Assembly: GCA_002839855.1 (NCBI GenBank)
Contig: PGYV01000007.1
Location: forward strand, 1-64,000
DNA: 64,000 nucleotides
Source: Candidatus Goldiibacteriota bacterium HGW-Goldbacteria-1
Lineage (GTDB): Bacteria > Oederibacteriota > PGYV01
Reading direction: 5' to 3'
Under the pieces are notes generated by a model that did no database searches, was not told the DNA's origin, and saw only the letters and a list, made by a program, of their open reading frames with translations. Position 1 is the first letter of the stretch; each line of letters opens with the position of its first letter. Shown piece by piece: positions 10,836-28,651 of the stretch. Position numbers and translations under genes: made by a program.

Positions 10836-11459
10836 TTAATCCACCTTTATGGCTGACAGCAGCACTTGTACGGAAGGAATATCAGGTACTAACAGCAGAT
10901 ACCCTTTTATCACTTTATCATTTGCCTCTGAGAACTGGGTTTCAATGGAAAGAATATGATTTGACATGCCTTCAAACCCTTCTGAAAGAGAATTTAAAAT
11001 AGCGCCCGATATGTCAAAAACCAGGCTGGGTACAGACGGCAATAATAACAGCCCCAGAAATTCATTAAGGGCATTCATATATGCGCCGGCAAGGATGTTG
11101 CCGGTCTCTTTTATGGCGGAATTGCCGACTTCTGACAGCACTTTGGTGGTGCCGGCCGGATTCTGCAGCAGCATATCCGCAAGCGACAGCGCGCTTTCCC
11201 TTGTAAGCAAAAGCAGAATTTTTGCAGTCACGTCGCCAAGCACGTTCATTATTATGCCCGCGACAAGGGTATTGGAATCCCCAAGCAGGTTTTCCACTTC
11301 CTTAAGTTTTAATATCTTAACCTGCGGCACTGATATCATAATTTTTCTTTTTAAAAGCTGCGACAGCGCGGTGGCCGCGTGTCCCGCACCCACATTACCC
11401 ACTTCTTTAAGCGCATCCACCTGAACTTCAGTCAGCGTCAGCAGTGAATCATCCGGCAT
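10836..11459 (-). CDS. cheC: CheC-family CheY-P phosphatase (first copy)
   Basis: 207 aa, expected to dephosphorylate CheY-P. Both active-site signatures D/S-x3-E-x2-N are intact: Asp15-Glu19-Asn22 (DALKEVGN) and Ser114-Glu118-Asn121 (SAIKETGN), each leading a long helix, so two phosphatase sites are predicted. Length fits CheC rather than CheX. SD AGAGGT lies 7 nt before ATG 11459. It is between cheA and the FtsA-like gene. About 30-35% identical by eye to the second CheC at 17192-17812. No CheZ is seen. Confidence 0.92.
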   Translation of the reverse strand: MPDDSLLTLTEVQVDALKEVGNVGAGHAATALSQLLKRKIMISVPQVKILKLKEVENLLGDSNTLVAGIIMNVLGDVTAKILLLLTRESALSLADMLLQNPAGTTKVLSEVGNSAIKETGNILAGAYMNALNEFLGLLLLPSVPSLVFDISGAILNSLSEGFEGMSNHILSIETQFSEANDKVIKGYLLLVPDIPSVQVLLSAIKVD

Positions 11460-11507: not shown

Positions 11508-13526
11508 TTAAAGCAGCGAAGTGATATCCACAATTAAGCTTATACTTCCGTCTCCCAGGATGGTGACGCCGGAAAATCCTTTAGCGAATTTTAAAAATTC
11601 ACCCAGGCTCTTTATCGCCACTTCCTGTTGACCTATCACGCGGTCCACTTCTATGGCCGCCTTTTTATCCCTTACATCCACTATCACAAGTTCGTGCACT
11701 TCAGCTTCAACGCGTTTTTTTCCAAGCAGTTCCATTAAACTGTAAACAGGTATAACTTCTTCTCTTAATATTATTACTTTTCTGTTCTGAATATAGCGGT
11801 ACTCTTTTTCAAAACTTTCAAATGTTTCCACCGTGTGAATAACCGGTATGGAATATGTTTCCTTGCCGGCTTTTACAAGCAGCGCCTGTACAATTGCCAG
11901 GGTAAGCGGCAGTTTAAGTATAAATTTAGAGCCCTCTTTCGGATAATTTTCTATCCTGAATATACCGCCAAAACCTTCTACCTTAGTTTTAACCACATCC
12001 ACACCCACGCCGCGTCCCGAAACTTTATTCACGCTTTCCATAGTGGAAAAACCCGGAAGGGCAATAAGCGCCACCACTTCATCATCATTCATATTTTTAA
12101 GACGCTCTTCAGTAACCACTTTTCTTTCCAGCGCTTTTTTTCTTACCGCCGCGGTGTTAATTCCGGCGCCGTCATCAGACACCTCTATTATTACGGAGTT
12201 GCGCTCCCTTTTAGCTGAAAGTCTGATTACACCCTTGGGATTTTTACCGGCTTTTATCCTTACATCCGGCATTTCTATACCATGGGCAAGCGAATTTCTT
12301 ATCAGGTGAAGCAGCGGTTCGTTCATCTCTTCTAACACAGTCCTGTCAATTTCAATATCCCCGCCTTCTATTTCCACTTCCACCTGTTTGCCCGCCTGCA
12401 TTGCAAGGTCGCGGACAGAACGCGGATACCTGTCAAAAATATGCGACACGGGAAGCATTCTTACGCTTGTAATTTCTATCTGCAGCTCGTCTATAACCCT
12501 GTCAAATTCTTCCACTGTATCATTAAGAAGTTCATATTTTTTTTCCTTGGCTATCTGGTCAAACCTTATCTTGTTGATGACAAGCTCTCCCACAAGGTTC
12601 ATAAGCGTGTCCAATTTTTCAATGTTCACCCTTACGCTCTGCGCCGAAGAATGTTTTTTCTGTTCCCCTTCACGAGGGTTTTCTTCCGGCTTAACAGGCG
12701 CGTTTTTTTCCGGCTGTGACAAAACAGCTTCTGCCGTTTTTTCAGCCGTTAATTCTTTAATATTAACATCTTTAACCTCGGACACTTTTAACACAAGTGA
12801 TTTTGTTTCCTGTACGCCAAGCGCCGTTGCAAAAACAAATTCAAATTCACTGTCAAATTTTCCTTCTTCTATATCCCGGGAAGACGGGTAAGAGCCTATT
12901 ATTTCGCCTTTCTCGGAAAGGTTTCTTGACACCATAAATGAACGCACGTTTTTAAACGCGCAGTTTTCAACAAGGATTGTTTTAATAAGGTATACTTTCA
13001 TTGATTTTGCCATGGCTTCACTTACTATTTTTTCATCCGCTTTCACGTTAAATCCTGCGGCTTCTGTCAAAGGTGTTTCTTTTCTTACCTCGGATTTTTT
13101 TGCCGTAATTTTTGGCGCGCTTTGAACAGGCAGCGGCTGCCCCGCATCAAGCTGTTTTTTTATGCTGTCTGCCACAATTGCGGCGCCGGCTGAATAATCG
13201 CTGTTAGTCTCTGCAATGGAATCAATAAAATCAGAAAGCGCGTCCACACTTTTAAACAGCAGGTTCATTATTTCCAGCGTCGGCCTTGTTTTGCCGGAAC
13301 GCACAGAATCAAGCACTTCTTCAAGTATATGGGTAAATCCGGCCATTCTGTCGTAACCCATAGTGGCCGACATGCCTTTTAAAGTATGCGCAGCCCTGAA
13401 AAGTTCATTGACCGGCGTTAAATCATCAAGATTTTTTTCAAGGTCCAAAAGGGAATTGTTCAGGTTATTGACATTTTCCCTGGCCTCTTCCATAAAGACT
13501 TCCCTGTAACTGTCCATATTCATCAT
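11508..13526 (-). CDS. cheA: Chemotaxis histidine kinase CheA
   Basis: 672 aa with full CheA architecture: HPt/P1 with phospho-acceptor His47 (AAHTLKGMS), a P2-like domain at about 165-255, dimerisation P3 at about 295-360, HATPase P4 with N box LIRNSLAHGIEM, G1 DDGAGIN and G2 GRGVGVDVV, and CheW-like P5 from about 535. It receives receptor signals via CheW and phosphorylates CheY and CheB. ATGATG overlaps the cheB stop by 4 bp, indicating coupling. A 48-bp gap separates it from the downstream cheC. Confidence 0.97.
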   Translation of the reverse strand: MMNMDSYREVFMEEARENVNNLNNSLLDLEKNLDDLTPVNELFRAAHTLKGMSATMGYDRMAGFTHILEEVLDSVRSGKTRPTLEIMNLLFKSVDALSDFIDSIAETNSDYSAGAAIVADSIKKQLDAGQPLPVQSAPKITAKKSEVRKETPLTEAAGFNVKADEKIVSEAMAKSMKVYLIKTILVENCAFKNVRSFMVSRNLSEKGEIIGSYPSSRDIEEGKFDSEFEFVFATALGVQETKSLVLKVSEVKDVNIKELTAEKTAEAVLSQPEKNAPVKPEENPREGEQKKHSSAQSVRVNIEKLDTLMNLVGELVINKIRFDQIAKEKKYELLNDTVEEFDRVIDELQIEITSVRMLPVSHIFDRYPRSVRDLAMQAGKQVEVEIEGGDIEIDRTVLEEMNEPLLHLIRNSLAHGIEMPDVRIKAGKNPKGVIRLSAKRERNSVIIEVSDDGAGINTAAVRKKALERKVVTEERLKNMNDDEVVALIALPGFSTMESVNKVSGRGVGVDVVKTKVEGFGGIFRIENYPKEGSKFILKLPLTLAIVQALLVKAGKETYSIPVIHTVETFESFEKEYRYIQNRKVIILREEVIPVYSLMELLGKKRVEAEVHELVIVDVRDKKAAIEVDRVIGQQEVAIKSLGEFLKFAKGFSGVTILGDGSISLIVDITSLL

Positions 13527-14584
13527 TTGCCGCCCGTTATACGCGCAATTGCCGACACAAGCGCGTCTTTCATCCCTGCGATGGATGATACTTCATCAGC
13601 CAATCCTCTTTCGATTACCGCCCTGGGCATTCCATAAATTACACTGCTGTCTTTATCCTGTGCAAGCACAAGGGCTTTTTTTGCCTTTAAGCGCTCTACT
13701 CCGGCTGATCCGTCCTTGCCCATTCCGGTAAGAACCACTGCAATTGATTTGCCTTCAAATTTTTCAGCCGCTGAAAACAGCGTCATATCTGCGCTTGGCC
13801 TTACACCCAGCCTTGTGGGTTTCTGGTTAAGCGCTATAATATAATTTCCGTCAATTTTTTCAATTTCCATGTGGAAATTTCCCGGCGCCACGTATGCCCT
13901 TCCCGCTGTTATTATTTCGCCGTCTTCCGCTTCTTTAATACTGATAAGCGACTGGCTGTTAAGCCTTTCTGCAAGCGTTTTTGTAAAACCCTGCGACATG
14001 TGCTGTACTACCAGATACGCGGCAGGAAGGTTCCTTGGAATTTTCGGTATAAATTCGGAAAGCGCCCTTGGCCCGCCCGTGGAAGTCGCGATAATTACAA
14101 GGACAAAATCTTTTACTTCTTTCTCTTTTTCCGGCGCTTTTTTTTCAACTGTTTCCGGCGCAAAAAATGTAAGTTTTGAAGCGTCGGTGGTTGCCGCAAT
14201 TTTTATCTTGCTTATAAGTTCGTCTTTTACTTTTTTTATGTCTATGGAAATTTCACCGGAAGGTTTACATACAAAATCCACAGCGCCATATTCAAGCGCC
14301 TGAAGGGTAATTTCCGCCCCTTTGGGAGTATAAGCGGAAAGCATTATAACCGGCGTGGGACGCTCGCTCATTATATAACCAAGGGTGGCAAGCCCGTTCA
14401 TTTTTGGCATTTCCACATCAAGGGTGATTACATCGGGTTTTAATTCAATGGTTTTCTTAAAGGCTTCCTGCCCGTCTTTCGCGGTGTCTATAACCTCAAT
14501 TCCGTCATCTTCCTGAAGGATTTGAGGAATGATTTTTCTCATGAAAGCGGAATCGTCTACAACAAGGACCCTTATCTTTCCCAT
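13523..14584 (-). CDS. cheB: Chemotaxis methylesterase/deamidase CheB
   Basis: 353 aa. N-terminal receiver domain with phospho-acceptor Asp56 (ITLDVEMPKMNG) and acidic pair VVDDS; Lys-rich linker about 145-160; C-terminal methylesterase with the triad Ser168 (IATSTGGP), His195 (VQHMSQGF) and Asp291 (TGMGKDGSAG). Removes receptor methyl groups, opposing CheR (22562-23380). SD AGGAGA overlaps the end of the upstream cheY. Overlaps cheA by 4 bp. Confidence 0.97.
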   Translation of the reverse strand: MGKIRVLVVDDSAFMRKIIPQILQEDDGIEVIDTAKDGQEAFKKTIELKPDVITLDVEMPKMNGLATLGYIMSERPTPVIMLSAYTPKGAEITLQALEYGAVDFVCKPSGEISIDIKKVKDELISKIKIAATTDASKLTFFAPETVEKKAPEKEKEVKDFVLVIIATSTGGPRALSEFIPKIPRNLPAAYLVVQHMSQGFTKTLAERLNSQSLISIKEAEDGEIITAGRAYVAPGNFHMEIEKIDGNYIIALNQKPTRLGVRPSADMTLFSAAEKFEGKSIAVVLTGMGKDGSAGVERLKAKKALVLAQDKDSSVIYGMPRAVIERGLADEVSSIAGMKDALVSAIARITGGK

Positions 14585-14587
14585 TTA

Positions 14588-14953
14588 TCAGTTCTCCTGA
14601 AGCGTTCTGTCAACCGCCTCCAGAACCCTTGCGGGTTGAAAAGGTTTAATAACAAAATCTCTGGCCCCGGCCTGAATTGCCTCTATAACCATTGCCTGCT
14701 GCCCCATGGCGCTGCACATAAGTATTTTTGCGGAAGGGTCTTCTGATAAAATGGCTTTTACGGCTTCTATACCATTCATTTCCGGCATTATAATATCCAT
14801 AGTAACAAGGTCGGGTTTTAACTCCCTGTATTTTTCAACGGCATCTTTGCCGTTTACAGCTTCGCCCACCACTTCAATATCCTTTTTTTTAAGAATATTG
14901 CGCAGCATGCTTCTCATAAACTTTGTATCGTCAACTATCAGGACTTTCTTCAA
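14588..14953 (-). CDS. cheY: CheY-type response regulator (first copy)
   Basis: 121 aa single receiver domain. Acidic pocket VDD (8-9), phospho-acceptor Asp53 (VTMDIIMPEMNG), Ser/Thr switch at MCSAMGQQ and Lys in VIKPFQP. No output domain, so it probably signals by binding a motor, pilus or other target. Overlaps the end of cheW by 23 bp and is 3 bp before cheB. Very similar to the second CheY at 17813-18178, including AIQAGARDFVIKPF versus AIQAGAKDYIVKPF. Confidence 0.95.
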   Translation of the reverse strand: MKKVLIVDDTKFMRSMLRNILKKKDIEVVGEAVNGKDAVEKYRELKPDLVTMDIIMPEMNGIEAVKAILSEDPSAKILMCSAMGQQAMVIEAIQAGARDFVIKPFQPARVLEAVDRTLQEN

Positions 14954-15419
14954 TTCCTGCCTCCATCATTGATATTCCCTGCATCTCGGTATTTTCCTGG
15001 TCAGAAAATATTTTTTCTATGTCAAGAAATACTATTATTTTTTCGTCCAGCTGAACCACGGCTTCTATATACCTTCCTCCGACGCTTACTATGGAAGGCG
15101 GCGCCGGCAGTATCTGTTCTTCCGGCACGGTAATTACCTGCGTGACTTCGTCCACAATCACGCCAACAAGCTGATTCCCGTGCATTTCAATTATTATTAT
15201 CCTTACGTTTTTTCCGCGCTTGTCTTCATGCAGCATAAACCGTTTACGCAGGTCTATAATGGGAATAATTTTTCCCCTTAAATTTATTACGCCTTCAATA
15301 AAAGACGGCGCCGTAGGCACGGGTGTTATCTGCTTTAACCTTATAATTTCAACCACTTTCATTATGTTAAAGGCAAATTCCTCTCCCTTAAGCCTGAAAC
15401 CCACTATTTTCTTTTCCAC
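14931..15419 (-). CDS. cheW: Chemotaxis coupling protein CheW
   Basis: 162 aa CheW fold that links receptors to CheA. Typical features: GFRLKGEEFAFNIMKVVEI at the N-terminus, GVINLRGKIIPIIDLRKRF, IIIEMHGNQLVGVIVDEV and a C-terminal KIIVFLDIEKIF. The last about 20 residues (from NTEMQG) are extra and overlap cheY. GTG 15419 is chosen: GGAG lies 5 nt upstream. It follows the receptor gene by 2 bp, so receptor and coupler are made together. Confidence 0.95.
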   Translation of the reverse strand: MEKKIVGFRLKGEEFAFNIMKVVEIIRLKQITPVPTAPSFIEGVINLRGKIIPIIDLRKRFMLHEDKRGKNVRIIIIEMHGNQLVGVIVDEVTQVITVPEEQILPAPPSIVSVGGRYIEAVVQLDEKIIVFLDIEKIFSDQENTEMQGISMMEAGIEESPDS

Positions 15420-15421
15420 TT

Positions 15422-16699
15422 TTACTCCGTTTTAAACTTTGAAATGGATTCACGAAGTGTTTCCGTCATCTGCGCCAGTTCCTGTGCCTGCGCCGCTATT
15501 TCCTGCATGGATGCGGTCTGTTCCTGCGTGGAAGCGGAAGCCTGCTGCGTGCCTGCCGCGGTTTCTTCAGATACCGCCGCAATTTCTTCAACCGCCTTTA
15601 CCACTTTATCCGTGTCTTCCGCCTGCGCCTTTGTAAGGTTAAAAATTTCATTTGAAAGTTTAACCACTTTTGTGACAACAGCATTTATTTCTTTTAAGGC
15701 CTGCCCGCTTTCCTTTACCACAAGCTTGCCTTCTTCTGTTTCGCGTACCCCCGTCATTATATCCACAACCACCTGGGCCGTGCGTTCGTGTATGTCTTCC
15801 ACAAGCCTGGCAATTTCCTTTGCGGCATCGCCTGAACCTTCGGCAAGTTTTCTTACTTCTTCCGCCACAACGGCAAAACCGCGCCCCGCCTCACCCGCGC
15901 GCGCCGCTTCTATGTTCGCGTTTAACGCCAGCAGGTTTGTCTCGTCCGCTATTTCGGTGATGATATTTACAACTTCTTCTATTTTTTCGGAATACCTTTT
16001 AAGTTCTTCTATTGAATCCTTTGCCTTGCTTGTCACCTGGACTATATCGTCAATTTTAATTATTGTCTGCCTTACAGCTTCCATTCCTTTTTCAGAAGCC
16101 TGTTTGGCCTCATTGGCCACGTTTAGCACGTCTTCGGACTTTGACGCCACTGTCTGTATGGAATCCGACATGTTTTCCATAATTCTGGAAGTCTCCACCG
16201 TACGCTCCGCCTGCTGTTCCACGCCGTGGGCTATCTGCTGGACAGTGCTGCTTATCTCTTCCGCAGACGCGTTTATCTCTTCGGTTGAAGCCGACAGATT
16301 TTCCGACAACATCCTCATGGTATCTATGGACTCTTTCATCTGCAGAAGCACTTTCTTGGTGCTTGCGGTCATTTTATTTATGGGCCTGGCAATAACGGGC
16401 AAAAATCCGTCGCTTTCCTCAACCCTTGTGGTCAAATCCCCGTCCGCTATCCTGTCAAAAAAGAAAGCCACATTTGTAAAAGCATCTATCACGGCTTTTG
16501 CCCCCATAAAAACAGCAGCAGCCCCCGCAAGGGCAAGCACACCTATGGTAAGCATGAAAAACATAAAAGGTTTTTCATATAACCTTAAAAAATACAGTAA
16601 TGACGCAAGCAGAACGCCCGTAAAAACGGCAACCGATAGGTTTATTACCAGCATCTTTTTAAGAAAAAAACCTTTTTTACCGCTGTTATTTCCTGCCAT
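15422..16699 (-). CDS. Methyl-accepting chemotaxis protein without a periplasmic sensor domain
   Basis: 425 aa. Two membrane helices (about 13-33 and 38-62) are separated by only a few residues, so there is no room for a periplasmic ligand domain. A HAMP-like linker follows ([23 protein letters not shown]), then the cytoplasmic signalling domain with hairpin tip near [20 protein letters not shown] and [12 protein letters not shown]. Gln/Glu-rich helices around residues 375-415 hold likely methylation sites. Stimulus could be intramembrane, cytoplasmic or passed from a partner. A 558-codon open frame on the opposite strand is an artefact of this gene. Confidence 0.95.
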
Positions 16700-16706
16700 T
16701 ATTACC

Positions 16707-17183
16707 TCACACTATTTTAATATCCCTGCCAAAACTTTTCACTTTCGCTTTTTTTTCAGTTACAAAGTATTCTATTGTCCTTCCGTAATTACTTCCGGTA
16801 TCTTCTCCCAATATCAGAATTCCCTTTTTCTCAAGTATTTCTTTTGCTTTTTTCACATTTCTGTTTCCTATAGAGTCGCCTTGACTTCCTATTTCAAACA
16901 TCCTCGCTCCGCCAAAAATCTTCGCGCGCATATCTTTTATATTTACTCCCATGTCTATCATTGCCTTTACAAGATTTTCAATTCCTGTATCCGCATATCT
17001 GTTCTTATCATGCCCTTTGCCTATCTTTTCCGGAAGCATAGCGTGAAGCATTCCGGCCCTGGGTTTTTCAACGTCAAAACACACCACCACAATACAGGAT
17101 CCTATACCATAAGCGGTTAACACATCCCCGCTTCCGCCCGTGTGCAGTTCTCCCATACCAACCTTAATGCTTTTATCAGACAT
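16707..17183 (-). CDS. cheD: Chemoreceptor glutamine deamidase CheD
   Basis: 158 aa. Converts receptor Gln to Glu and, in known systems, is held by CheC. Catalytic Cys30 (GIGSCIVV) and His47 (MLHAMLP) are present, with the family segments [11 protein letters not shown] and GNRNV. It lies directly between cheC and the receptor gene, the arrangement expected for a CheC-CheD feedback loop. Confidence 0.95.
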
Positions 17184-17191
17184 TTATTTTT

Positions 17192-17812
17192 TTAAGCGCC
17201 GCTTGCCGTATTATCAAGCGACGTTAATATCTTCCTCATGGATTCTTCATCAGGTATTAAAAATACTGTTGCCTGTATCTTCGCGGTTTCTTCCACCATG
17301 TCAGTTTCTATTAAAAGCGCTTCGGATCCTGTCTCTGCTATTTCCGCGGAAACCGTCTGAAATACCGCTTCCACCATATCCACGGCAAGCGCCGGCACTG
17401 AAGGCACCGAATTTAACCCCATTAATTTTGCTATCGCGTTCATGTAGGAAGATATAAGTATATTGCCGATTTCTTTTAACGCGGACTGTTCATTTTCGCC
17501 AAACTCTTTTGTGGTTCCAAGGGCACGTCTCATTAGAAGGTCAACAATTAAGAATACTTTATTCTGCGGAAATATCATCAGCGCCCTGCCTGTAATATCT
17601 CCGAAAATTTTCAGGTAAACAGCGGCTACAATCTCATTTTTAAATTCTATCCTGTCCACCATTTTATCCACAGGAACCATTAAAACTTTTGGAACGCTTA
17701 AGGAAACATCTTTTCCCAAAAGCTGTGAAAGCGCGGTCGCCGCGTTGCCGGCGCCAATATTTCCCATTTCACGAAGGGCGTCTTTATGAAAATCACTAAG
17801 TTTAATGGTCAT
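17192..17812 (-). CDS. cheC: CheC-family CheY-P phosphatase (second copy)
   Basis: 206 aa. Both phosphatase signatures are intact: Asp11-Glu15-Asn18 (DALREMGN) and Ser110-Glu114-Asn117 (SALKEIGN). The start ATG follows the cheY stop directly (TAGATG), so CheY and its phosphatase are coupled. CheD is next downstream (8 bp gap). With the copy at 10836-11459 the operon encodes two CheC proteins; which one binds CheD cannot be told here. Confidence 0.93.
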   Translation of the reverse strand: MTIKLSDFHKDALREMGNIGAGNAATALSQLLGKDVSLSVPKVLMVPVDKMVDRIEFKNEIVAAVYLKIFGDITGRALMIFPQNKVFLIVDLLMRRALGTTKEFGENEQSALKEIGNILISSYMNAIAKLMGLNSVPSVPALAVDMVEAVFQTVSAEIAETGSEALLIETDMVEETAKIQATVFLIPDEESMRKILTSLDNTASGA

Positions 17813-18178
17813 CTATACACCCAGTATCTTTCCCACAGTTTCAAGCACGTTTGACTGATCAAAAGGTTTTACAATATAGTCCTTTGCCCCGGCCTGAATG
17901 GCTTCAATTACAAGCGCCTGCTGGCCGATAGCACTGCAGATAAGCACGTTGGCATTAGGATAATCTTTCATTATCTCCCTTAACGTGTCAATTCCGCCCA
18001 TTTCAGGCATAACCATATCTGAAATAAGCATGTCAGGCAAAAGTTTTCTATAAAGTTCAACAGCCTCACGCCCGTTTCCGGCTTCGCCTACAACTTCGTA
18101 TCCGCCTTCGGTAAGTATATTTTTCAGCATCATTCTCATAAACGCCGCGTCATCAGCTATTAATACTCTTTTTGCCAT
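17813..18178 (-). CDS. cheY: CheY-type response regulator (second copy)
   Basis: 121 aa receiver domain: acidic pair ADDAAF, phospho-acceptor Asp54 (LISDMVMPEMGG), switch ICSAIGQQ and Lys in YIVKPFDQS. No output domain. SD GGAGT lies upstream of ATG 18178. The 79-bp AT-rich gap before it is the longest inside the 3' half of the operon and may carry an internal promoter, though no convincing -35/-10 pair was found. Confidence 0.95.
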   Translation of the reverse strand: MAKRVLIADDAAFMRMMLKNILTEGGYEVVGEAGNGREAVELYRKLLPDMLISDMVMPEMGGIDTLREIMKDYPNANVLICSAIGQQALVIEAIQAGAKDYIVKPFDQSNVLETVGKILGV

Positions 18179-18257: not shown

Positions 18258-18596
18258 TTAAATGGCATCTTCTTTTCTTTCGCCCGTCCTTATCCTTAAA
18301 ACATCCGTGATTTCGGAAATAAAAATTTTACCGTCTCCAATTCTTCCGGTTCTGGTACAGTCCACAATTTCTTTTATAACCATTTCTGCTTCGCTGTCTT
18401 TTACCACCATTTCCACCTTTGACTTTGGCAGAAACTCCACGGCTATATCCTGGTCCCTCATCTTTTCAAGCTTGCTTTTCTGCACTCCAAAGCCATCGGC
18501 AGCGGTTACCGTAAGGCCGCACACGCCTGTTTCTATCATCCGCTTTCTTAAAGCGTCAAACTTTGAAGGGGCTATAATTACGGTTATCTTTTTCAT
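18258..18596 (-). CDS. PII-family signal protein lacking the uridylylation tyrosine
   Basis: 112 aa, the exact length of canonical GlnB, and alignable without gaps. Conserved: Gly35-Phe36-Gly37, Gln39 and Lys40 at the T-loop base, FLPK at 55-58, B-loop TGRIGDGKIF and C-terminal RIRTGE, so ATP/ADP and possibly 2-oxoglutarate binding look kept. The T-loop itself is replaced (SKLEKMRDQDIAV): Tyr51 is Ile and Tyr46 is Met, so GlnD-type uridylylation is not possible there. The start overlaps the TPR gene stop as ATGA. No amtB, glnA or glnD is near. It probably reports energy or nitrogen state to the chemosensory or TPR proteins (inference). Confidence 0.9.
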   Translation of the reverse strand: MKKITVIIAPSKFDALRKRMIETGVCGLTVTAADGFGVQKSKLEKMRDQDIAVEFLPKSKVEMVVKDSEAEMVIKEIVDCTRTGRIGDGKIFISEITDVLRIRTGERKEDAI

Positions 18597-20779
18597 TTAA
18601 TAATCTTTTTTCTGCCGGCAGAAGGCGAAAGCATAAGTTCTTTTCTCCATATTTCCACCATGCGTATGTTTTCCTGCGACTGTGTTGCAAGCTCGCTTTC
18701 CGGATTTACTTCAATATACTTTTTCCACATTTCAATTGCTTCATCCCACCAGCTTTTATTACGGAACACTTCGCCAAGCCTGAAATACGCTTCTGTCATT
18801 TTGGGGTCAATTTCAATTGTTTTGTGGTATTCAATATCCGCCTCGTCCCACCACTCTTTCTTCTGATATGCCATAGCCAGTTTCATATGCGCCACCGGGT
18901 CTTTGCTGCTGCCGGAAACGGCGGATATGAAACATTTTATAGCCTCATCATATTTGGCGGTCTCATAATAGGCAGACCCTAAATTTATAATGGCATCCCT
19001 GTTATCAGGCTGTATTTCAAGCACTTTTTTATATTCTACAATAGCCTCCTGCAAATGTCCAGTATTTCTATATGCACTGGCTAAATCGTAGTGAATCAGG
19101 GGATTTTCCCCTTCATTTATTGCCTTTTCGCTCAGTTTTGTAATTGTTTCCTTAAAGACAGTATCCTTTTTTTTGGCCGATTCAAGATTTTTTCTGGCAA
19201 CTTCATAACCCGGCTCAATTTCAAGGGCTTTTTCAAAGTATTTCTGCGCGTCTATAAAGAAATTCTTTTTATAAAATGCCACACCCAGGTTATTGTATGC
19301 CTTAAAATATTTCGGGTCTATCTCCGCGGCTTTTTTATAAAATTCTATCGCCTTGTCCAGATCACCCATATTTTTGTATGATACCCCCATGCTGTTATAA
19401 GCCACCGCGTTTGACGGCTGCATAGAAATAACTTTCTGATACTCAATCACAGCTTCTTCATTTCTTCCTTTATCCGTTAAAACCAGCCCCAGGTATAAAT
19501 TCACCTCGGGTTTTCTCATGTAATGCGGCTGCATTTCAAGAGCGTTTCTGAATTCTGTCACGGCCTCATCATACCGTTTCTGTTTGTAATAACAGGTGCC
19601 AAGATAATAACGTGCTTCATTGTCATACGGCTCCTTTATAAGGTGAACGGTAAGTTTTTTTACAGCGTCATCAAGAAGGTCCTGCTTTATGAACACAACC
19701 GCCCTTTCAAGTTCTATTCTTCTGAATTCAGGGTTTTCTTCTTCCACCGCGTCTAAAACAGCAAGTGCTTTTGCGTAATCGCCCATTTCCCTGTAAGCCA
19801 CCGCTATGTTAACCTTTGCGTCCACCAAGCCCGGGTCTATTTTCAGAGTCTGCTTGAAAACTTCTATGGCATCACTCAGAAGGTGTTTTTTTATAAGCAG
19901 TTCCCCGAAGAAATTATAATATATTGGATTACTGCCGTTATGGGATATGGCTTTTTTAATTTCCCTGATAGCGTCGTCAATATACCCTTTCATTTTATTT
20001 ACGCGCGCAAGGTTATAATACGCCTCTTCTTTTCTGTCTTCTTTCATGGATTCCACAAACTTTTCGCGTTTCTGAGATTTTTCGTCAAAGTGCTCTATTA
20101 CCAGGCTCTTATTGGACTGCACAAACGAAGGGTTAAGTTCAATGGCCCTGTTATAACACATCTGCGCCTCTTCGTCCTTGGACAGCTCGCCATATACAAA
20201 GCTTAAATTATAATAGGCAAGGGCGTATTCCTTATTTATCTGCACAGCCTTTTTAAGTTCATCTTCCGCCTCTTCATACATACCCCTTTTATAAAGGGTT
20301 TCGCCCAGGTTGTTCCTTATCTCCGCGTAATTCGGATACTGCTCCAGCGCTTTTTTAAACACCTCTTCGGCTTTGTCATATTCGCCTATATTTTTATAAA
20401 TTACACCCATAAGGTTTCTTGCAAGCAGGTGTTCCGGATTAAGTTCAAGCGCTCGGTTTAAAAGTTTAAGGCTTTCCTGGTATTCCCCGGTATAGCTTAA
20501 AGCATTGCCAAGGTTATAGTACGCTTCCGGGTCACCGGCATAAAACTGTACCGCTTTACGATAGGCCAGTATGGCGCGGTCATATATCCCTGTCTGTTTG
20601 TTTACGGATTTTAGATTTTCCTGGGCCTGGGTGTAGGTGGGATTCATTTCAATTGCTTTCTTAAAATTTTCTATAGCTTCCTGATACATTCCCTTGGAAT
20701 AATAATACACTCCAAGGTTATTTAAAGATACGGCATCTTCCTTCTTTTCCTGTTTTGGAATTTCAGCTTTGTCAGCCAC
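18593..20779 (-). CDS. Large TPR-repeat protein
   Basis: 728 aa, almost wholly tetratricopeptide repeats from about residue 15 to 705 (roughly 18-20 units; e.g. AYYNLGNALSYTGEYQESLK, AYNNLGVAFYKKNFFIDAQK). No signal peptide or membrane helix, so cytoplasmic. Such solenoids are protein-binding scaffolds. It is coupled to the PII gene at its end (4-bp overlap), and its start overlaps the stop of the CheW-fusion gene by one base. A role as scaffold of the signalling complex is inference. The lack of spacer suggests all three products are made together. Confidence 0.9.
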   Translation of the reverse strand: MADKAEIPKQEKKEDAVSLNNLGVYYYSKGMYQEAIENFKKAIEMNPTYTQAQENLKSVNKQTGIYDRAILAYRKAVQFYAGDPEAYYNLGNALSYTGEYQESLKLLNRALELNPEHLLARNLMGVIYKNIGEYDKAEEVFKKALEQYPNYAEIRNNLGETLYKRGMYEEAEDELKKAVQINKEYALAYYNLSFVYGELSKDEEAQMCYNRAIELNPSFVQSNKSLVIEHFDEKSQKREKFVESMKEDRKEEAYYNLARVNKMKGYIDDAIREIKKAISHNGSNPIYYNFFGELLIKKHLLSDAIEVFKQTLKIDPGLVDAKVNIAVAYREMGDYAKALAVLDAVEEENPEFRRIELERAVVFIKQDLLDDAVKKLTVHLIKEPYDNEARYYLGTCYYKQKRYDEAVTEFRNALEMQPHYMRKPEVNLYLGLVLTDKGRNEEAVIEYQKVISMQPSNAVAYNSMGVSYKNMGDLDKAIEFYKKAAEIDPKYFKAYNNLGVAFYKKNFFIDAQKYFEKALEIEPGYEVARKNLESAKKKDTVFKETITKLSEKAINEGENPLIHYDLASAYRNTGHLQEAIVEYKKVLEIQPDNRDAIINLGSAYYETAKYDEAIKCFISAVSGSSKDPVAHMKLAMAYQKKEWWDEADIEYHKTIEIDPKMTEAYFRLGEVFRNKSWWDEAIEMWKKYIEVNPESELATQSQENIRMVEIWRKELMLSPSAGRKKIIK

Positions 20780-21387
20780 TATGTCTCATTATCCTTTTCC
20801 GCGAAAGCTTCCGGTTTTAAAAGCGTCACTATCCTGTCTTTATCCCTGATAATACCGGCTATGTATTTTTTATCCGCGCTGAAATTATGTTTTGCAGCGT
20901 TTTCAAAATCAGACGCTTCAAAATTACGCACCGAAAAAACACTGTCTACAAGAAGGCCTATTCTTTCTTCTTTCACTTCCACCACAATAACCCTTGAATT
21001 TTCGTCAATGTGGCTCTGTTTCCCGAAAATTTTCATTGATAAACTGATTACCGGCACCACATCTTCCCTGATTCCCATAAGGCCAAGAATGTAAGGCGGA
21101 ACACCGGGGACAGGGATTATTTTTTTTGTTTTTATGATTTCCTTGGAAAATACCACTTCAAGGGCGTACAGTTCTTCGCACACCTGAAACACCACGACAA
21201 GCATTCCTTTAAGCATTTCCATAATCTGCTGTTCTTTAATAATGCCTTTTTTTACAAGAATTTTTCCCAGATGTTCGCCGGTTGATACCTGTTCACGCAG
21301 CGCTTCATCAAGCTGCTCTTTTGTAATATATTCCGCCTGCATAAGCAGCGTTCCCAGGCTTTTATCCTGTTTTTTTATTGTATCCAT
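20779..21387 (-). CDS. CheW-like coupling protein with MshEN-like N-terminal module
   Basis: 202 aa. Residues about 10-57 match the paired half-repeats found at the N-terminus of type II/IV secretion ATPases: LGTLLMQAEYITKEQLDEAL and LGKILVKKGIIKEQQIMEML, with 'Q-x-LG' spacing. Residues about 60-195 are a CheW domain (VVFQVCEELYALEV, ILGLMGIREDVVPVISLSMK, VIVVEVKEERIGLLVDSVF). In full MshEN domains this module binds c-di-GMP; here the first half lacks the usual Gly, so binding is uncertain. The combination would connect c-di-GMP or a pilus/secretion ATPase to the chemosensory array. Lies between two TPR genes. Confidence 0.8.
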   Translation of the reverse strand: MDTIKKQDKSLGTLLMQAEYITKEQLDEALREQVSTGEHLGKILVKKGIIKEQQIMEMLKGMLVVVFQVCEELYALEVVFSKEIIKTKKIIPVPGVPPYILGLMGIREDVVPVISLSMKIFGKQSHIDENSRVIVVEVKEERIGLLVDSVFSVRNFEASDFENAAKHNFSADKKYIAGIIRDKDRIVTLLKPEAFAEKDNET

Positions 21388-22561: not shown

Positions 22562-23380
22562 CTATTCTGCCTTTCTTTCTTCAAGTTTTGTAAAAATCCG
22601 TTCTTTTATATTGATACATTTAAACTTGTCGCGGTATTCCAGAAGCATGGTTTCTGTCTTACCCATAAAAAAAATGCCGTCTTTTTTAAGCGCGTCATGA
22701 AAAAACATAATCACGCTTTTTTGAAGTTCTCTTGAAAAATATATTATCACATTCCTGCAGAAAACAAAATCAAACTGCTCTTTTAAGTAAGGTTTCATAA
22801 GGTTCGCCTTGACAAATTTTACTTTCTTTTTTATTGAATCCTTAATCCTGAAAAAATTACCGTCCTTTATAAAATACTTTGTTTTCCTGTTGACGGCCAC
22901 ATTATCCAGTGTGTGCCCTTCGTATTTGCCCTCTATAGCCCTGTATAAAATGGCATCATCAATATCCGTGGCGTGAATCTCGTAATCAATACCTTTAATA
23001 CCCAGTTTTTCCATTGTTTCTTCAATTGAAATAGCTATTGAATAAGGTTCTTCGCCGGAACTGCACCCGGCGCTCCAGACGCTTATTTTTTTTTTGCCTT
23101 CAAGCATCTTTGGCAGAAGATCATTTTCAAATACTATAAACACTTCGGGGTCCCTGAAAAATTCGGTGACGTTGATGGTAAGTTTGTCAAGCAGAACGGA
23201 CATTTCCCTGCTGTCTTTTTCAATCACATTCAGATAATCAGCGTAAAGTTTTGTTCCAAGAGCCCTCATCCTTACCGCAAACCTTCTTTTTAAATAATTC
23301 TCCTTATACTGGCTGACATCAAGCCCGCGGTCAGCATGTATCTTTTCTTTTATCTTCACATACGCAATATTGTCATCCAT
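22562..23380 (-). CDS. cheR: Chemoreceptor methyltransferase CheR
   Basis: 272 aa. N-terminal helical domain (YLKRRFAVRMRALG, TINVTEFFRDPEVF) and SAM-binding domain with VWSAGCSSGEEPYS, EIHATDIDD and FDFVFCRNVIIYF. Methylates receptor glutamates using S-adenosylmethionine, the partner of CheB. It is the first classical che gene of the operon, one base after the HD-GYP gene. Confidence 0.96.
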   Translation of the reverse strand: MDDNIAYVKIKEKIHADRGLDVSQYKENYLKRRFAVRMRALGTKLYADYLNVIEKDSREMSVLLDKLTINVTEFFRDPEVFIVFENDLLPKMLEGKKKISVWSAGCSSGEEPYSIAISIEETMEKLGIKGIDYEIHATDIDDAILYRAIEGKYEGHTLDNVAVNRKTKYFIKDGNFFRIKDSIKKKVKFVKANLMKPYLKEQFDFVFCRNVIIYFSRELQKSVIMFFHDALKKDGIFFMGKTETMLLEYRDKFKCINIKERIFTKLEERKAE

Positions 23381-23381
23381 A

Positions 23382-24764
23382 TCAGTTCAGCTGAATCCCG
23401 CCGGCGCTGCCGTTTTCTTCATTAATAATTTCAAGAAACTTTCCCACAAGTTTTGAATCAAACTGGGTGCCGGAACATTTTTTCAGTTCATTTACCGCGG
23501 CCTCTTTTGTAAGGGCTTTCCTGTAAGGCCTGTCAGAACGCATTACAGAGTATGCGTCAGCTATAGAACATATCCTGGCGCCAAGCGGTATTTCCTCGCC
23601 TTTAAGGCTGGACGGATACCCTTTACCGTCAAAATGCTCGTGATGATACAGGATAATAGGAAGAATTTCATCAAATATTTCCAGTTTATTTAAAATATCA
23701 ACCCCTTCCGCGGGGTGTTTCATTATTATTCCAAACTCTTCCTGCGTAAGTGAAGAAGGCTTATTAAGGATGCTGCTGCTTATGTTTATTTTGCCTATGT
23801 CATGCAGAAGTGAAGCATAGCGAATTTTTTCTTTTTCCGGCTCAGAAAGCCCAAGTTTTTCGGCAAGTTTTATTGCATACGTCATTGTGGCCATAGAATG
23901 TCCGTGCGTTTCATGGTCTTTTGTGTCAATTGCAATTGCAAGAGCCTGTATTATTTTTTCATAATTGCCTTTAAGTTTTGAAATAAGGGCGTGTTTTTCC
24001 ATAATTATAAAAACCTGCTCACTAAAAAATTCAAGTATATAAATGTCAATTTCCCTGAATTCCTTTTCGCGCACGGCTATCGTAATTTCGCGCAGCTTAT
24101 TTTCATCAAACACAGGGACAATAACAGCATTCAACCCGTCCGCCCCCGAAATAAATCCTGTGGAATTTGCGCTGATATTTTTTAGCAGTAAGTCATTTAT
24201 AATATCCTGGTTTATTTCATCCTTAATCTGCCCGTGCATATCCCCGTGTGAAAAAACGGATGAAAGCATTCCGTTTTTTTTAGGGTCTATAGAATACACA
24301 AGCATGTGTTTTATTCCCATTATTGACTCTATATTCCTTGAAAGCACTTTTCTTACAGACATGGAATTGGTATCAGTTTTTATTTCACGAAGCATGTCGT
24401 GGTCCAGCATAAGGGAATTTACCACTTTATTCACAAACTCCCGTTCTTCCATATCCGTATTTTTTGTTTCCGGATCTTTCCTTATTTTTCTTGAAAAATC
24501 GGCAAGTACAGACAGAACAGGGAGTGAAAACAGGTAAAAAAACAGTTCCCCTGTCCTTAACCCGTTCATGGAGTAAAAAATAAAAACAGAAAACATGGAT
24601 AGAAAAAGTCCGTTTACCCAGGATTTAATATAGGACAATAAAACTGCCAGGCAGCAAATTAAAGCAAATACCCATTTCGCTTCCAAAGCCAAAGGATTAA
24701 GCGCTAAAACAAACGCTAAAAAACCCGCCAGAACCTGTAAAGAAAAAATCCCGTCCTGTTTCAT
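23382..24764 (-). CDS. Membrane HD-GYP cyclic-di-GMP phosphodiesterase
   Basis: 460 aa. About four membrane helices in residues 1-90, a GAF-like region at about 110-270, then a complete HD-GYP domain: ETHGHSMATM, LLHDIGKINI, ILNKPSSLTQEEF, HPAEGV, YHHEHFDGKGYP and ICSIADAYSVM. Predicted to hydrolyse c-di-GMP to GMP. Placed directly before cheR, it may tie c-di-GMP level to chemosensory output, in line with the MshEN-like CheW downstream. A diguanylate cyclase is at 48130-49374. Confidence 0.92.
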   Translation of the reverse strand: MKQDGIFSLQVLAGFLAFVLALNPLALEAKWVFALICCLAVLLSYIKSWVNGLFLSMFSVFIFYSMNGLRTGELFFYLFSLPVLSVLADFSRKIRKDPETKNTDMEEREFVNKVVNSLMLDHDMLREIKTDTNSMSVRKVLSRNIESIMGIKHMLVYSIDPKKNGMLSSVFSHGDMHGQIKDEINQDIINDLLLKNISANSTGFISGADGLNAVIVPVFDENKLREITIAVREKEFREIDIYILEFFSEQVFIIMEKHALISKLKGNYEKIIQALAIAIDTKDHETHGHSMATMTYAIKLAEKLGLSEPEKEKIRYASLLHDIGKINISSSILNKPSSLTQEEFGIIMKHPAEGVDILNKLEIFDEILPIILYHHEHFDGKGYPSSLKGEEIPLGARICSIADAYSVMRSDRPYRKALTKEAAVNELKKCSGTQFDSKLVGKFLEIINEENGSAGGIQLN

Positions 24765-24772
24765 GAATACCT

Positions 24773-25951
24773 CTATTTCGCAATAGTTTTTACTGCGTAA
24801 CCTTCGCTGAAGACCTCGGTCTGTTCAATAACTATCGCTGTTGCACTGCTTTTCATTGAATTTATTACCATAATCCTGCCCGCCACATGATACAGGTCTG
24901 CGTCCTTGCTTTCCGGGTCCTGTGTTTCACGTATAACTTCAAGTTTTTCTCCCGGCATAATACCTTTGTCAAGCCCGATATTAATATATACAATATCCTT
25001 ATTCTGAAAATTAACAGGGCCTTTTACAGTTTTAATCACACGGCCTTCCCTTTCAACGTTTTTAGATTTTATTTTTCTTGAAAGTTTTGCCTGGTAGTCC
25101 TTTACTTCCCTGCGCAGTTTTATCTTATTTTTGTTCTCTATGGGTTCATAGCTTTTTATTATGACCACCTGAAATATATTGTCCTTAATTTTCTTTGTTA
25201 CCCTTGCCACACCATTTACTTTAATAAGTTTTCCCAGAGCCTCTCCCGTTTCTTTTTCAAAAATTTCCTCGGAATCATCGTATATCATCAGTTCACTTCC
25301 GGCTTTTACGCTTTTCCCGACTGTTATTTTAACGTATGCCCTGTCGTTCTGGACAATCATAAGTTTATTATCCACGGTATAAATAAAACCGTCATCCGCA
25401 AAATTGTCTGTTATAAACCCGGCCCGTTCCACAAGCACATATCCCGCGCTTTGAATTCTTCCCTTTTTTTCATCTTCCACAAGTATAAGTTCGCCTTCGG
25501 TATCCGCTTCGTAATCCACGACAAATTCACCGTCTTCACCGCGTTCTTCAAGGTCGCCGTAATCCACATCCGCCCTTTTTTCCTGCGGAGCCGCATCTTC
25601 TTTTTTTCTGGCTATAAATTTTTCTATCTCTGCAGGTTCGGTTTCACCCGGAAGCAGTATAATTATACCGTCTGTATCACCGCTTTCATCCACCACTATT
25701 GCCTGCGTTGCAGCCGGCTGCACCGTATTAACCGCTGTTGCTTCTGCTTCCTGCTGCTGTGCGGGTTCCGTTTCGGCTGCAGATGTTCTTTCAGACGGTA
25801 TAGGAGGTATAACATCCTGCGCTTCTTCAACAGCTTTTTTTTCCTCTATCTGCTGTGCAGGTCCGCTTGACATAATAAAATCGTCATCAGCTGCAAAAAT
25901 AAAACCGGATAAAACAAAGAAAGACAGTACAAATACCTGTATTATTTTCAT
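24773..25951 (-). CDS. Secreted acidic protein, function unknown
   Basis: 392 aa. Signal peptide (VFVLSFFVLSGFIFA-A). Residues about 25-165 are Glu/Ala/Asp/Gln-rich and probably disordered. The C-terminal half is beta-rich with 'IVYINIGLDKGIMPGEKLEV' and 'AGRIMVINSMKSSATAIVI', the look of envelope domains that follow a LysM or sit in flagellar/pilus assembly factors. No enzyme motif. It is 8 bp before the HD-GYP gene and behind the small gene 25967-26383, so is probably in the operon. Family not identified. Confidence 0.65.
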   Translation of the reverse strand: MKIIQVFVLSFFVLSGFIFAADDDFIMSSGPAQQIEEKKAVEEAQDVIPPIPSERTSAAETEPAQQQEAEATAVNTVQPAATQAIVVDESGDTDGIIILLPGETEPAEIEKFIARKKEDAAPQEKRADVDYGDLEERGEDGEFVVDYEADTEGELILVEDEKKGRIQSAGYVLVERAGFITDNFADDGFIYTVDNKLMIVQNDRAYVKITVGKSVKAGSELMIYDDSEEIFEKETGEALGKLIKVNGVARVTKKIKDNIFQVVIIKSYEPIENKNKIKLRREVKDYQAKLSRKIKSKNVEREGRVIKTVKGPVNFQNKDIVYINIGLDKGIMPGEKLEVIRETQDPESKDADLYHVAGRIMVINSMKSSATAIVIEQTEVFSEGYAVKTIAK

Positions 25952-25966
25952 TTTTCACCTTCCCAA

Positions 25967-26383
25967 TTAGAAGTTCCCAAGTTCCATAAGCCTGTCTTTC
26001 GCTTCCTGATAATTCTTGCCATTAGGAAACCTTTCCATATAAGCCTTATACGCAAATCTGGCTTTTGTCCCTTCAATCATCCTGTCAAGGGTCCTTGCCT
26101 TAAAGAAATTAATATCATCTATTCTGTCGCTGGAATCATTTTTATCATATTCATCATAAATATCATATGCTTCTATATACTTATCCACCATTTGAAGGGT
26201 TCTTTCATACTTTCCAACCGCATAAACATATTTTATATTCTTATAAAGTGCTTCTTCCAGGTACTGGTCCTGCAGCTCTGCCCTTGATTTTTCTTCCCAT
26301 TTCACGCTTATACTCTCCGCTCCGCCCACAAAAACCACGGCAACTATAATAAGAATTGCTGCGATTATACCTAATCCTTTCAT
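25967..26383 (-). CDS. Small membrane-anchored helical (TPR-like) protein
   Basis: 138 aa from ATG 26383, chosen because AAGGAGG lies 5 nt upstream; the frame extends to 26431 without an SD. One N-terminal membrane helix or uncleaved signal (LGIIAAILIIVAVVFVGG), then about 105 residues of helical, charged sequence with tetratricopeptide-like pairs (LEEALYKNIKYVYAVGKYER, FPNGKNYQEAKDRLMELG). Likely faces the periplasm. It is the most upstream gene of the chemosensory transcription unit. Function unknown. Confidence 0.65.
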   Translation of the reverse strand: MKGLGIIAAILIIVAVVFVGGAESISVKWEEKSRAELQDQYLEEALYKNIKYVYAVGKYERTLQMVDKYIEAYDIYDEYDKNDSSDRIDDINFFKARTLDRMIEGTKARFAYKAYMERFPNGKNYQEAKDRLMELGNF

Positions 26384-26550
26384 ACTTTCCTCCTTATAAA
26401 TTAAGATAATAATACATAATAATAATATCAATAATAAGGTATTTTGTCAATTTTTGAATACAGGTGTTTTTTGCAGGTAATAAATAAGAAAACTATACCA
26501 CAGACCGAAACAGCCGTTTATTTATGATATTTTTATGTATTTTATAAATA

Positions 26551-26603: not shown

Positions 26604-28232
26604 TTATTTTCCTGCCATCATCGCTTCCACATCGCCTTTTACATCCCCAATGGGTTTTATGTTAAACTTTTCCACCAGAACCTTTACCACATTAGGTGAT
26701 ATAAACGCAGGAATTGTAGGCCCAAGCCTTATGCCTTTTACTCCCAGCGAAAGAAGTGCCAGCAGCACAGCCACTGCTTTTTGTTCGTACCACGCGATGT
26801 CAAAAGAAATCGGCAGTTCATTAATGTCTTTTAAGCCAAAAACTTCTTTTAATTTTAATGCCACAACCGCAAGCGAATAGGAATCATTGCACTGTCCGGC
26901 ATCAAGTACTCGCGGTATGCCGCCTATATCCCCAAGATTAAGCTTGTTATACCTGTACTTGGCGCAGCCGGCTGTAAGAATCACAGTATCTTTTGGAAGT
27001 GTTTCCGCCACTTCGGTAAAATAACTTCTTGAAGGCTGCCTGCCGTCGCATCCGCCCATTACTACAAATCTTTTTATCGCGCCGCTCTTTATGGCATCCA
27101 CCACTTTGTCAGCAAGAGCAAGAATCTGGTCGTGGGCAAAACCGCCTATAATTTCGCCTTTTTCAATTTCAGTCGGCGGCGGGCATTTTTTTGCAAGTTC
27201 AATTAAAACAGAAAAATCTTTTGCCTTTCCATCTTCTCTTTCTGCAATGTGTTTAACTCCGGGATACCCGGCCATTCCGGTGGTAAATATCCTGTCTTTA
27301 TAGGAATCTTTAACCGGCACAATGCAATTGGTTGTCATTAATATAGGCCCGTTAAATGTTTCAAATTCTTTATTCTGATGCCACCACGAACCGCCGTAAT
27401 TACCGGCAAATTGTTTATATTTTTTAAAGGCAGGGTAGTAATTTGCCGGAAGCATCTCGCTGTGAGTATAAACGTCAACTCCTGTGCCTTCTGTCTGCTT
27501 TAACAGTTCGCTCATGTCCTTTAAATCATGGCCGGATATCAGTATACCCGGGTTATTTCTTACCCCTATATTTACCTTTGTAATTTCCGGTTTTCCGTAT
27601 GTTTCGGTATTGGCCTTATCAAGCAGCGCCATTGTTTTCACCGCTGTATCCCCGGTTGCAAGCACAAGTGCGGTAAGTTCATCCGCACCAAGGTTTTTAG
27701 GAATTGAAGCAAGCGCCTTTATCACAAACGCGAATACTTCATCGTCATAATACCCAAGCATTGCGGCGTGGTCCGCGTAAGCGGCTATTCCTTTAAGCCC
27801 ATAAACCATCAGAGATTTCAAAGACCTTGCGTCTTCGTTGGAACTGTAGCTTAAAACCCCTGTTAAAAGGGCTTTTTGTGCGAATTCTTCTTTTGTGGAC
27901 CCTTCCCACACCGCACAGTCAGGCGCGTCAGAATCAGCGCCGGCTTTTACTTTTAACTCGCCCCTTAATACAAGCGCTTTTTTAATAAGATTTTCTATTT
28001 TATCATCGTCAAAATTCGCGTTTGTAATTGTGGCAAAGAGGCCCTGGCACAGAAATAATCCGTATTTTCTGTCTTTATTACCTGTTTTTTCCGCGTAGTA
28101 AGATATTCCCTGCAGAAGGAATATCAGAAGGTCCTGCAGGTTTGAAGTACTGTCGTTCTTCCCGCATACCCCCTTCATCGTACAGGCTGTGTTCTTAACT
28201 GTTTCCTGACACTGATTACAGTACATTCCCAT
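26604..28232 (-). CDS. hcp: Hybrid-cluster protein (hydroxylamine/NO reductase type)
   Basis: 542 aa. N-terminal cysteines at 5, 8, 17 and 23 (C-x2-C-x8-C-x5-C) are the class I (anaerobe) [4Fe-4S] spacing. Ligands of the hybrid 4Fe-2O-2S cluster are visible in GHDLKD, TNCIVP, GGCDGR, AGCAKYR and [10 protein letters not shown]. Known family roles are reduction of hydroxylamine and of nitric oxide. No reductase gene (hcr) is adjacent. SD AGGAGG before ATG 28232; 11 bp behind the Rrf2 regulator, with which it probably forms a nitrosative-stress operon. Confidence 0.96.
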
Positions 28233-28243
28233 CTTTTGCCTCC

Positions 28244-28651
28244 TTAATTTTTATTTTGGAGCAGAGATTTAATTGTCATTTTTTCAAACCTGCCTGTCAC
28301 AAGTTTTTCAATCTTCATCACTTCACGCCTTAACACACAGGTCTGACGGTTGCAGCACGGTTTCCCGCGGAACATGCATTCGGACATTTCAAATCCTTTG
28401 TGATATATTTTTATCAGGTCAATCACTTTTATTTTACCGGGGTGTATAAGAAGCCTAACCCCGCCTTCCGCGCCTTCTTTTGATTCTACCACTTTATTTT
28501 TTATCAAAGGTTTTAAAAGCCTGCGCAGAAACGGATAGGGGATGTTCTGTACTTTAGAGATAGCTTTCGCCGACATGTAAGAATCACCGTTTCCTGCAAG
28601 CGTCATCAGCGCCCTTACCGCGTAATCAGTGTCTTTATTTATGATTTTCAT
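28244..28651 (-). CDS. Rrf2-family Fe-S transcription regulator (NsrR-like)
   Basis: 135 aa winged-helix Rrf2 protein ([38 protein letters not shown]). Cys92, Cys99 and Cys105 have the C-x6-C-x5-C spacing of cluster-binding Rrf2 regulators; an extra Cys100 lies between. Next to hcp, nitric oxide sensing as in NsrR or HcpR-like control is the best guess. A perfect palindrome starts 14 bp before its start codon, so autoregulation is likely. SD AGGAGC. Confidence 0.9.

Follow-up and report, generated by a model that had tools for sequence, protein, structure and literature searches.

The window, a stretch of 64,000 nt from Candidatus Goldiibacteriota bacterium HGW-Goldbacteria-1 (contig PGYV01000007.1), encodes a chemosensory operon on its minus strand. 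The genes follow each other in the order orf154, orf392, HD-GYP-type protein, CheR, TPR1, CheW fusion, TPR2 and PII in the first half of the operon, and continue after the PII gene with CheY, CheC, CheD, MCP, CheW, CheY, CheB, CheA, CheC and a PilM/FtsA-like protein (Table 1). Based on Pfam, the chemosensory set is complete, with CheA (Hpt and kinase domains), CheW, CheY, MCP, CheR and CheB found together. From its sequence, the HD-GYP-type protein may be a c-di-GMP phosphodiesterase. The position of the PilM/FtsA-like gene is conserved in the order of the window and in two further genomes (G023 and G017); its product additionally gave weak ThiS/TGS-like matches. A hybrid-cluster (prismane) protein with an Rrf2-type regulator is encoded directly upstream of the che block (window positions 26604-28651).

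Table 1 Genes of the chemosensory operon in the window, in operon order.
Feature	Coordinates	Strand	Characteristics
154-aa protein (orf154)	25967..26431	minus	one hydrophobic segment; no family above cut-off; conserved in the order
392-aa protein (orf392)	24773..25951	minus	signal-peptide-like start; no family above cut-off; conserved in the order
HD-GYP-type protein	23382..24764	minus	PF13487, 128.8 bits; HDIGK...HHEHFDGKGYP; hydrophobic N-terminal region
CheR methyltransferase	22562..23380	minus	PF01739, 179.9 bits
TPR1, 388 aa	21395..22561	minus	Pfam; position conserved among relatives
CheW fusion	20779..21387	minus	N-terminal MshEN-like (PilB/PilF N-domain-like) segment; PF01584 at 64-197
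TPR2, 728-aa TPR solenoid	18593..20779	minus	Pfam TPR; conserved C-terminal tail (SPS..RKKIIK)
PII of the chemosensory operon (che-PII)	18258..18596	minus	112 aa, ATG start; PF00543
CheY1 response regulator	17813..18178	minus	PF00072, 103.5 bits
CheC phosphatase	17192..17812	minus	PF04509
CheD	16707..17183	minus	PF03975
Chemoreceptor (MCP)	15422..16699	minus	PF00015, 144.3 bits; two N-terminal hydrophobic segments
CheW	14931..15419	minus	PF01584, 138.5 bits
CheY2 response regulator	14588..14953	minus	PF00072, 113.4 bits
CheB	13523..14584	minus	PF01339 and PF00072
CheA kinase	11508..13526	minus	Hpt, P2, dimerisation, HATPase and CheW domains
Second CheC-type phosphatase	10836..11459	minus	PF04509, 79.5 bits
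PilM/FtsA-like ATPase, 705 aa	8715..10832	minus	PF14450 and PF11104, both exceeding the cut-off; last gene of the conserved block

The PII protein matches the Pfam profile over residues 1-106 with 85.4 bits (cut-off 25) and aligns with other PIIs without gaps. In an AlphaFold model (pLDDT 85), structure comparison recovered the ferredoxin-like PII fold, with TM values of 0.7-0.8 against solved PII structures; the nearest solved structure by profile is 2eg1. Gln39, Lys40, the FLPK motif and the B- and C-loops (TGRIGDGKIF and RIRTGE) are intact and position 51 carries isoleucine, all as described in the initial annotation. Its statement that the base of the T-loop is intact holds for Gln39, Lys40 and FLPK, but not for Arg38 and Gly41, which are replaced by valine and serine, respectively. 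All residues of the nucleotide site (G87, D88, G89, K90, R101 and R103) are present, as are both Q39 and K58. The start codon overlaps the stop codon of the 728-aa TPR2 gene by 4 bases, in agreement with the coupling of these two genes noticed earlier, and the CheY1 gene begins 79 bases after che-PII. We thus confirmed a genuine PII gene within a complete che operon.

We searched 45 genomes of the phylum for this arrangement, counting TPR2 at an E-value below 1e-100. TPR2 is present in 26 of them, and in all 26 the next gene is a PII gene on the same strand, starting at most about 105 bases from the end of TPR2; several genomes show overlaps of 1-4 bases between PII and its upstream gene. A 27th genome (G017) carries the order CheR-TPR1-CheWf-PII-CheY-CheC-CheD, in which PII overlaps the CheW fusion (CheWf) by 4 bases and no TPR2 match was found. 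The gene directly downstream of PII encodes CheY in 27/27 genomes, and CheY, CheC and CheD follow in this order wherever the contig extends. These genomes represent one species each and belong to ten families (f1, f2, f4, f6, f7, f10, f12, f13, f14 and f15), so that the membership of PII in a chemosensory operon, first proposed for the window, recurs in 26 other species. Two genomes of a single genus, G004 and G009 (83-84% complete), lack both TPR2 and PII, and their che operon is broken in two precisely at this slot (loci L240/L241 and L242/L243). Other che clusters inspected within the phylum (G016 C6, G030 C63 and G007 C80) gave no PII match.

As a control, we searched the surroundings of 79 PII loci from other phyla, which were lightly sampled, with the operon proteins and found a che operon around none of them; seven loci had single CheY-like matches and another one an MCP match. 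When 27 genomes were searched by locus, TPR2 turned up in only one, the same assembly as G012. A scan of genome contigs with the PII alignment was swamped by generic PIIs and served as a negative control. The position of PII within the che operon is not a chance context.

The genome of the window encodes two other PIIs, each located behind amtB and with a glutamine synthetase-like gene nearby, whereas che-PII has no genetic link to amtB or glnA and is surrounded by che genes. The two tandem amtB-PII pairs lie at L004 6402-10971 (G000 C1) close to a 707-aa glutamine synthetase-like gene, and their PIIs lack Tyr51. In a phylogenetic tree of 113 PIIs, from which the G017 protein was left out, a single branch (SH-aLRT 78, not starred) sets the 26 remaining che-PIIs off from the amtB-linked PIIs of the phylum and the named references. 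The phylogeny suggested as a check in the initial annotation hence separates che-PII from the two amtB-linked PIIs of the same genome and groups it with PIIs from other che operons. Calculated on 112 columns, few for a tree of this size, it favours but does not prove a single clade of che-PIIs. Comparison with the sister species G001 yielded a dN of 0.05 and a dS of 0.73 (dN/dS about 0.07), similar to other genes of the operon; che-PII is under strong purifying selection.

The initial annotation was headed by the lost uridylylation tyrosine. We rejected this loss as the key feature of the protein. Tyr51 is lost in the ten che-PIIs of the window's order and in G017, but kept in 16 che-PIIs, all outside that order (families f7, f12, f13, f14 and f15), and it is also missing from both amtB-linked PIIs of the window's genome. 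A search for GlnD recovered E. coli and other controls, but none of the 45 genomes of the phylum gave a match above the cut-off. Since the phylum has no recognisable GlnD, the amtB-linked PIIs of this genome lack Tyr51 and other che-PIIs keep it, its absence is uninformative. Matches to PF08335 were paired within single long frames, which look like GlnE rather than GlnD. Open frames of about 1260-1285 amino acids combine two GlnD/GlnE-type domains with a region similar to the C-terminal portion (614-841) of the GlnD model; they occur at G034 C16, G031 C171, G037 C154, G020 C52, G014 C66, G025 C6, G028 C6 and G040 C361 and are possibly GlnE proteins with ACT-type domains.

Judging from the alignments, the informative changes in che-PIIs are instead those in the 2-oxoglutarate site and the T-loop. 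G41 is lost in 26 of the 27 che-PIIs and kept in 86 of 87 other PIIs, and R38 is absent from all 27. K58, invariant in the 87 other PIIs, is Arg or Gln in 19/27 che-PIIs, and Q39 is replaced in ten of them. In known PII structures, Q39 and K58 contact 2-oxoglutarate/Mg. The G017 protein has, in addition, a two-residue deletion in the T-loop. K90, R101 and R103, on the other hand, are kept in 27/27 che-PIIs. Because these three residues are invariant and Q39 and K58 are variable, the candidate function conserved in the group is nucleotide binding. The window protein could plausibly sense 2-oxoglutarate as well, whereas this does not hold for every member of the group. Of the ligands originally suggested (ATP, ADP and 2-oxoglutarate), the nucleotides are thus backed by the retained residues, while 2-oxoglutarate is doubtful for many members with replaced K58 or Q39. 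The lineage-specific change of the T-loop is what would be expected if the protein contacted a new partner, as had been proposed.

Looking at candidate partners within the operon, TPR2 is modelled by AlphaFold as a long all-helical TPR solenoid of about 40 helices with a low-confidence tail (residues 714-728). This tail is conserved in 26 genomes (SPS/SPG/APS..., ending in I/L-K/R). Its last ~11 residues (SPS..RKKIIK), low-confidence in the model yet conserved, resemble a C-terminal docking peptide. The tail is kept also where the genes are ~100 bases apart, so it is kept as protein, and it is a good candidate for a peptide on which PII, CheY or another product docks. The joint absence of TPR2 and PII from G004 and G009 supports a link between the two, with the restriction that these genomes are of one genus and 83-84% completeness. 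The case for TPR2 as an obligate partner of PII suffers from G017, where PII is present but TPR2 gave no hit; the shortened T-loop in this single genome would fit a lost contact. Residues 7-53 of the CheW fusion match PilF (6f8l; best E-value 2.6e-13). Its N-terminus shares the two-motif layout of the MshEN domain in PilB, PilF and MshE but, unlike in these proteins, both arginines of the RLG motifs are replaced and an ATPase domain is lacking. Among the 22 fusions examined, nearly all have other residues in place of the RLG arginines, which makes a role of this segment as a c-di-GMP sensor doubtful. An obligate partnership between PII and the CheW fusion was rejected, as the f7 loci keep PII and have no CheWf match.

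With regard to the output of the system, flagellins were found in 4/45 genomes of the phylum, and the window's genome (G000) has no Flagellin_N match. It encodes one CheA/CheW set, four MCP matches and six T2SSE-type ATPases; ATPases of the PilB and PilT types are present, and a PilM-like gene lies within the che block itself. The missing flagellin match, the PilB- and PilT-type ATPases and the PilM-like gene make pili the likeliest output, and by gene content the operon probably controls a type IV pilus-driven behaviour. The flagellins in four genomes of the phylum count against this assignment.

Chemosensory operons with CheC and CheD and alternative outputs such as type IV pili share CheA, CheW, CheY, CheB, CheR, CheC, CheD and MCP with the operon described here, which goes beyond them in containing PII, two TPR proteins, the MshEN-like CheW fusion and the PilM-like ATPase. 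GlnB/GlnK-type PIIs (2eg1, S. elongatus PII and A. brasilense GlnZ) have length, fold, B-loop and C-loop in common with che-PII, and the window copy also has Q39 and K58. In contrast to them, che-PII is without amtB link, Tyr51 and GlnD, has R38 and G41 replaced and is encoded in a che operon. The targets known for PII proteins belong to nitrogen and carbon metabolism and comprise enzymes, transporters and transcription regulators; in chemosensory arrays, metabolism is usually sensed by the receptors. A PII gene in the che operon of 27 species suggests that metabolism is wired directly into a system steering behaviour. In our literature searches, no previous description of a che operon with a PII gene came up, in line with the initial annotation, which knew of no such operon. 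They yielded only a case from Azospirillum brasilense, in which PII affects aerotaxis as well as c-di-GMP; the PII protein GlnZ of this species binds two c-di-GMP enzymes and changes aerotactic behaviour (PMC7646526). GlnZ is likewise a PII influencing taxis-related behaviour, but it is a general nitrogen PII that acts via c-di-GMP enzymes and has no operon linkage, whereas che-PII is encoded within the chemosensory operon.

We consider it about an even chance that che-PII is a dedicated adenylate sensor adjusting the chemosensory array, with pili as the probable output; here, we infer ligand, partner, direction of control and output. According to this reading, a PII would have become a dedicated part of a chemosensory operon common to the phylum, while the amtB-linked PIIs would serve nitrogen uptake. 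The PII trimer would bind ATP or ADP in the conserved inter-subunit sites, and in the window's lineage perhaps 2-oxoglutarate as well. Its altered T-loop might then dock on TPR2, TPR1, the CheW fusion or CheY1, and docking would alter the activity of the kinase array or the availability of CheY according to the energy state of the cell. The full chain, in which an array with a built-in PII subunit passes the energy state through a T-loop contact with scaffold, CheW or CheY to CheA signalling, throughout the phylum and separately from nitrogen control, is held somewhat more tentatively, at slightly less than even chances. If true, adenylate state and behaviour would be directly linked through a PII encoded in the operon across the phylum, and the operon offers a defined gene set for testing this link.

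Information could also flow in reverse, with PII as the output: CheA/CheY activity or occupancy of the scaffold would sequester or release PII, and PII would in turn act on a metabolic target elsewhere. Non-taxis outputs of chemosensory systems are known (PMC6978683), CheA1 and CheA4 affect nitrogen metabolism in Azospirillum (PMC8561660), and the lack of a flagellin match in the window's genome favours this possibility as well. We nevertheless regard it as unlikely, given that the altered T-loop makes the standard PII targets improbable and that the amtB-linked PIIs already serve them. Similarly unlikely is a PII that has become a structural subunit of an accessory scaffold with vestigial ligand sensing. 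The replaced 2-oxoglutarate residues (K58 in 19/27, Q39 in 10/27) and the T-loop of G017, two residues shorter, would agree with such a role; a pure scaffold, however, would not need nucleotide residues, and K90, R101 and R103 are invariant.

Control of c-di-GMP by PII, which would regulate the HD-GYP-type protein while the MshEN-CheW fusion relays the signal to the array or the pili, has a precedent in Azospirillum GlnZ (PMC7646526) with its two bound c-di-GMP enzymes and altered aerotaxis, and both required genes lie within the operon. We give this route a slightly lower chance still, because almost none of the examined fusions retains the MshEN arginines and PII is kept in f7 loci without HD5 or CheWf match, with the loci of f12, f13 and f15 also having no HD5 match. 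An ordinary nitrogen-regulation PII residing in the operon by accident would account for a fold and a nucleotide site like those of any PII, but is strongly disfavoured and very improbable: che-PII occupies the same slot in 27 species of ten families, has its own position in the tree, is not linked to amtB and has lost G41 and R38.
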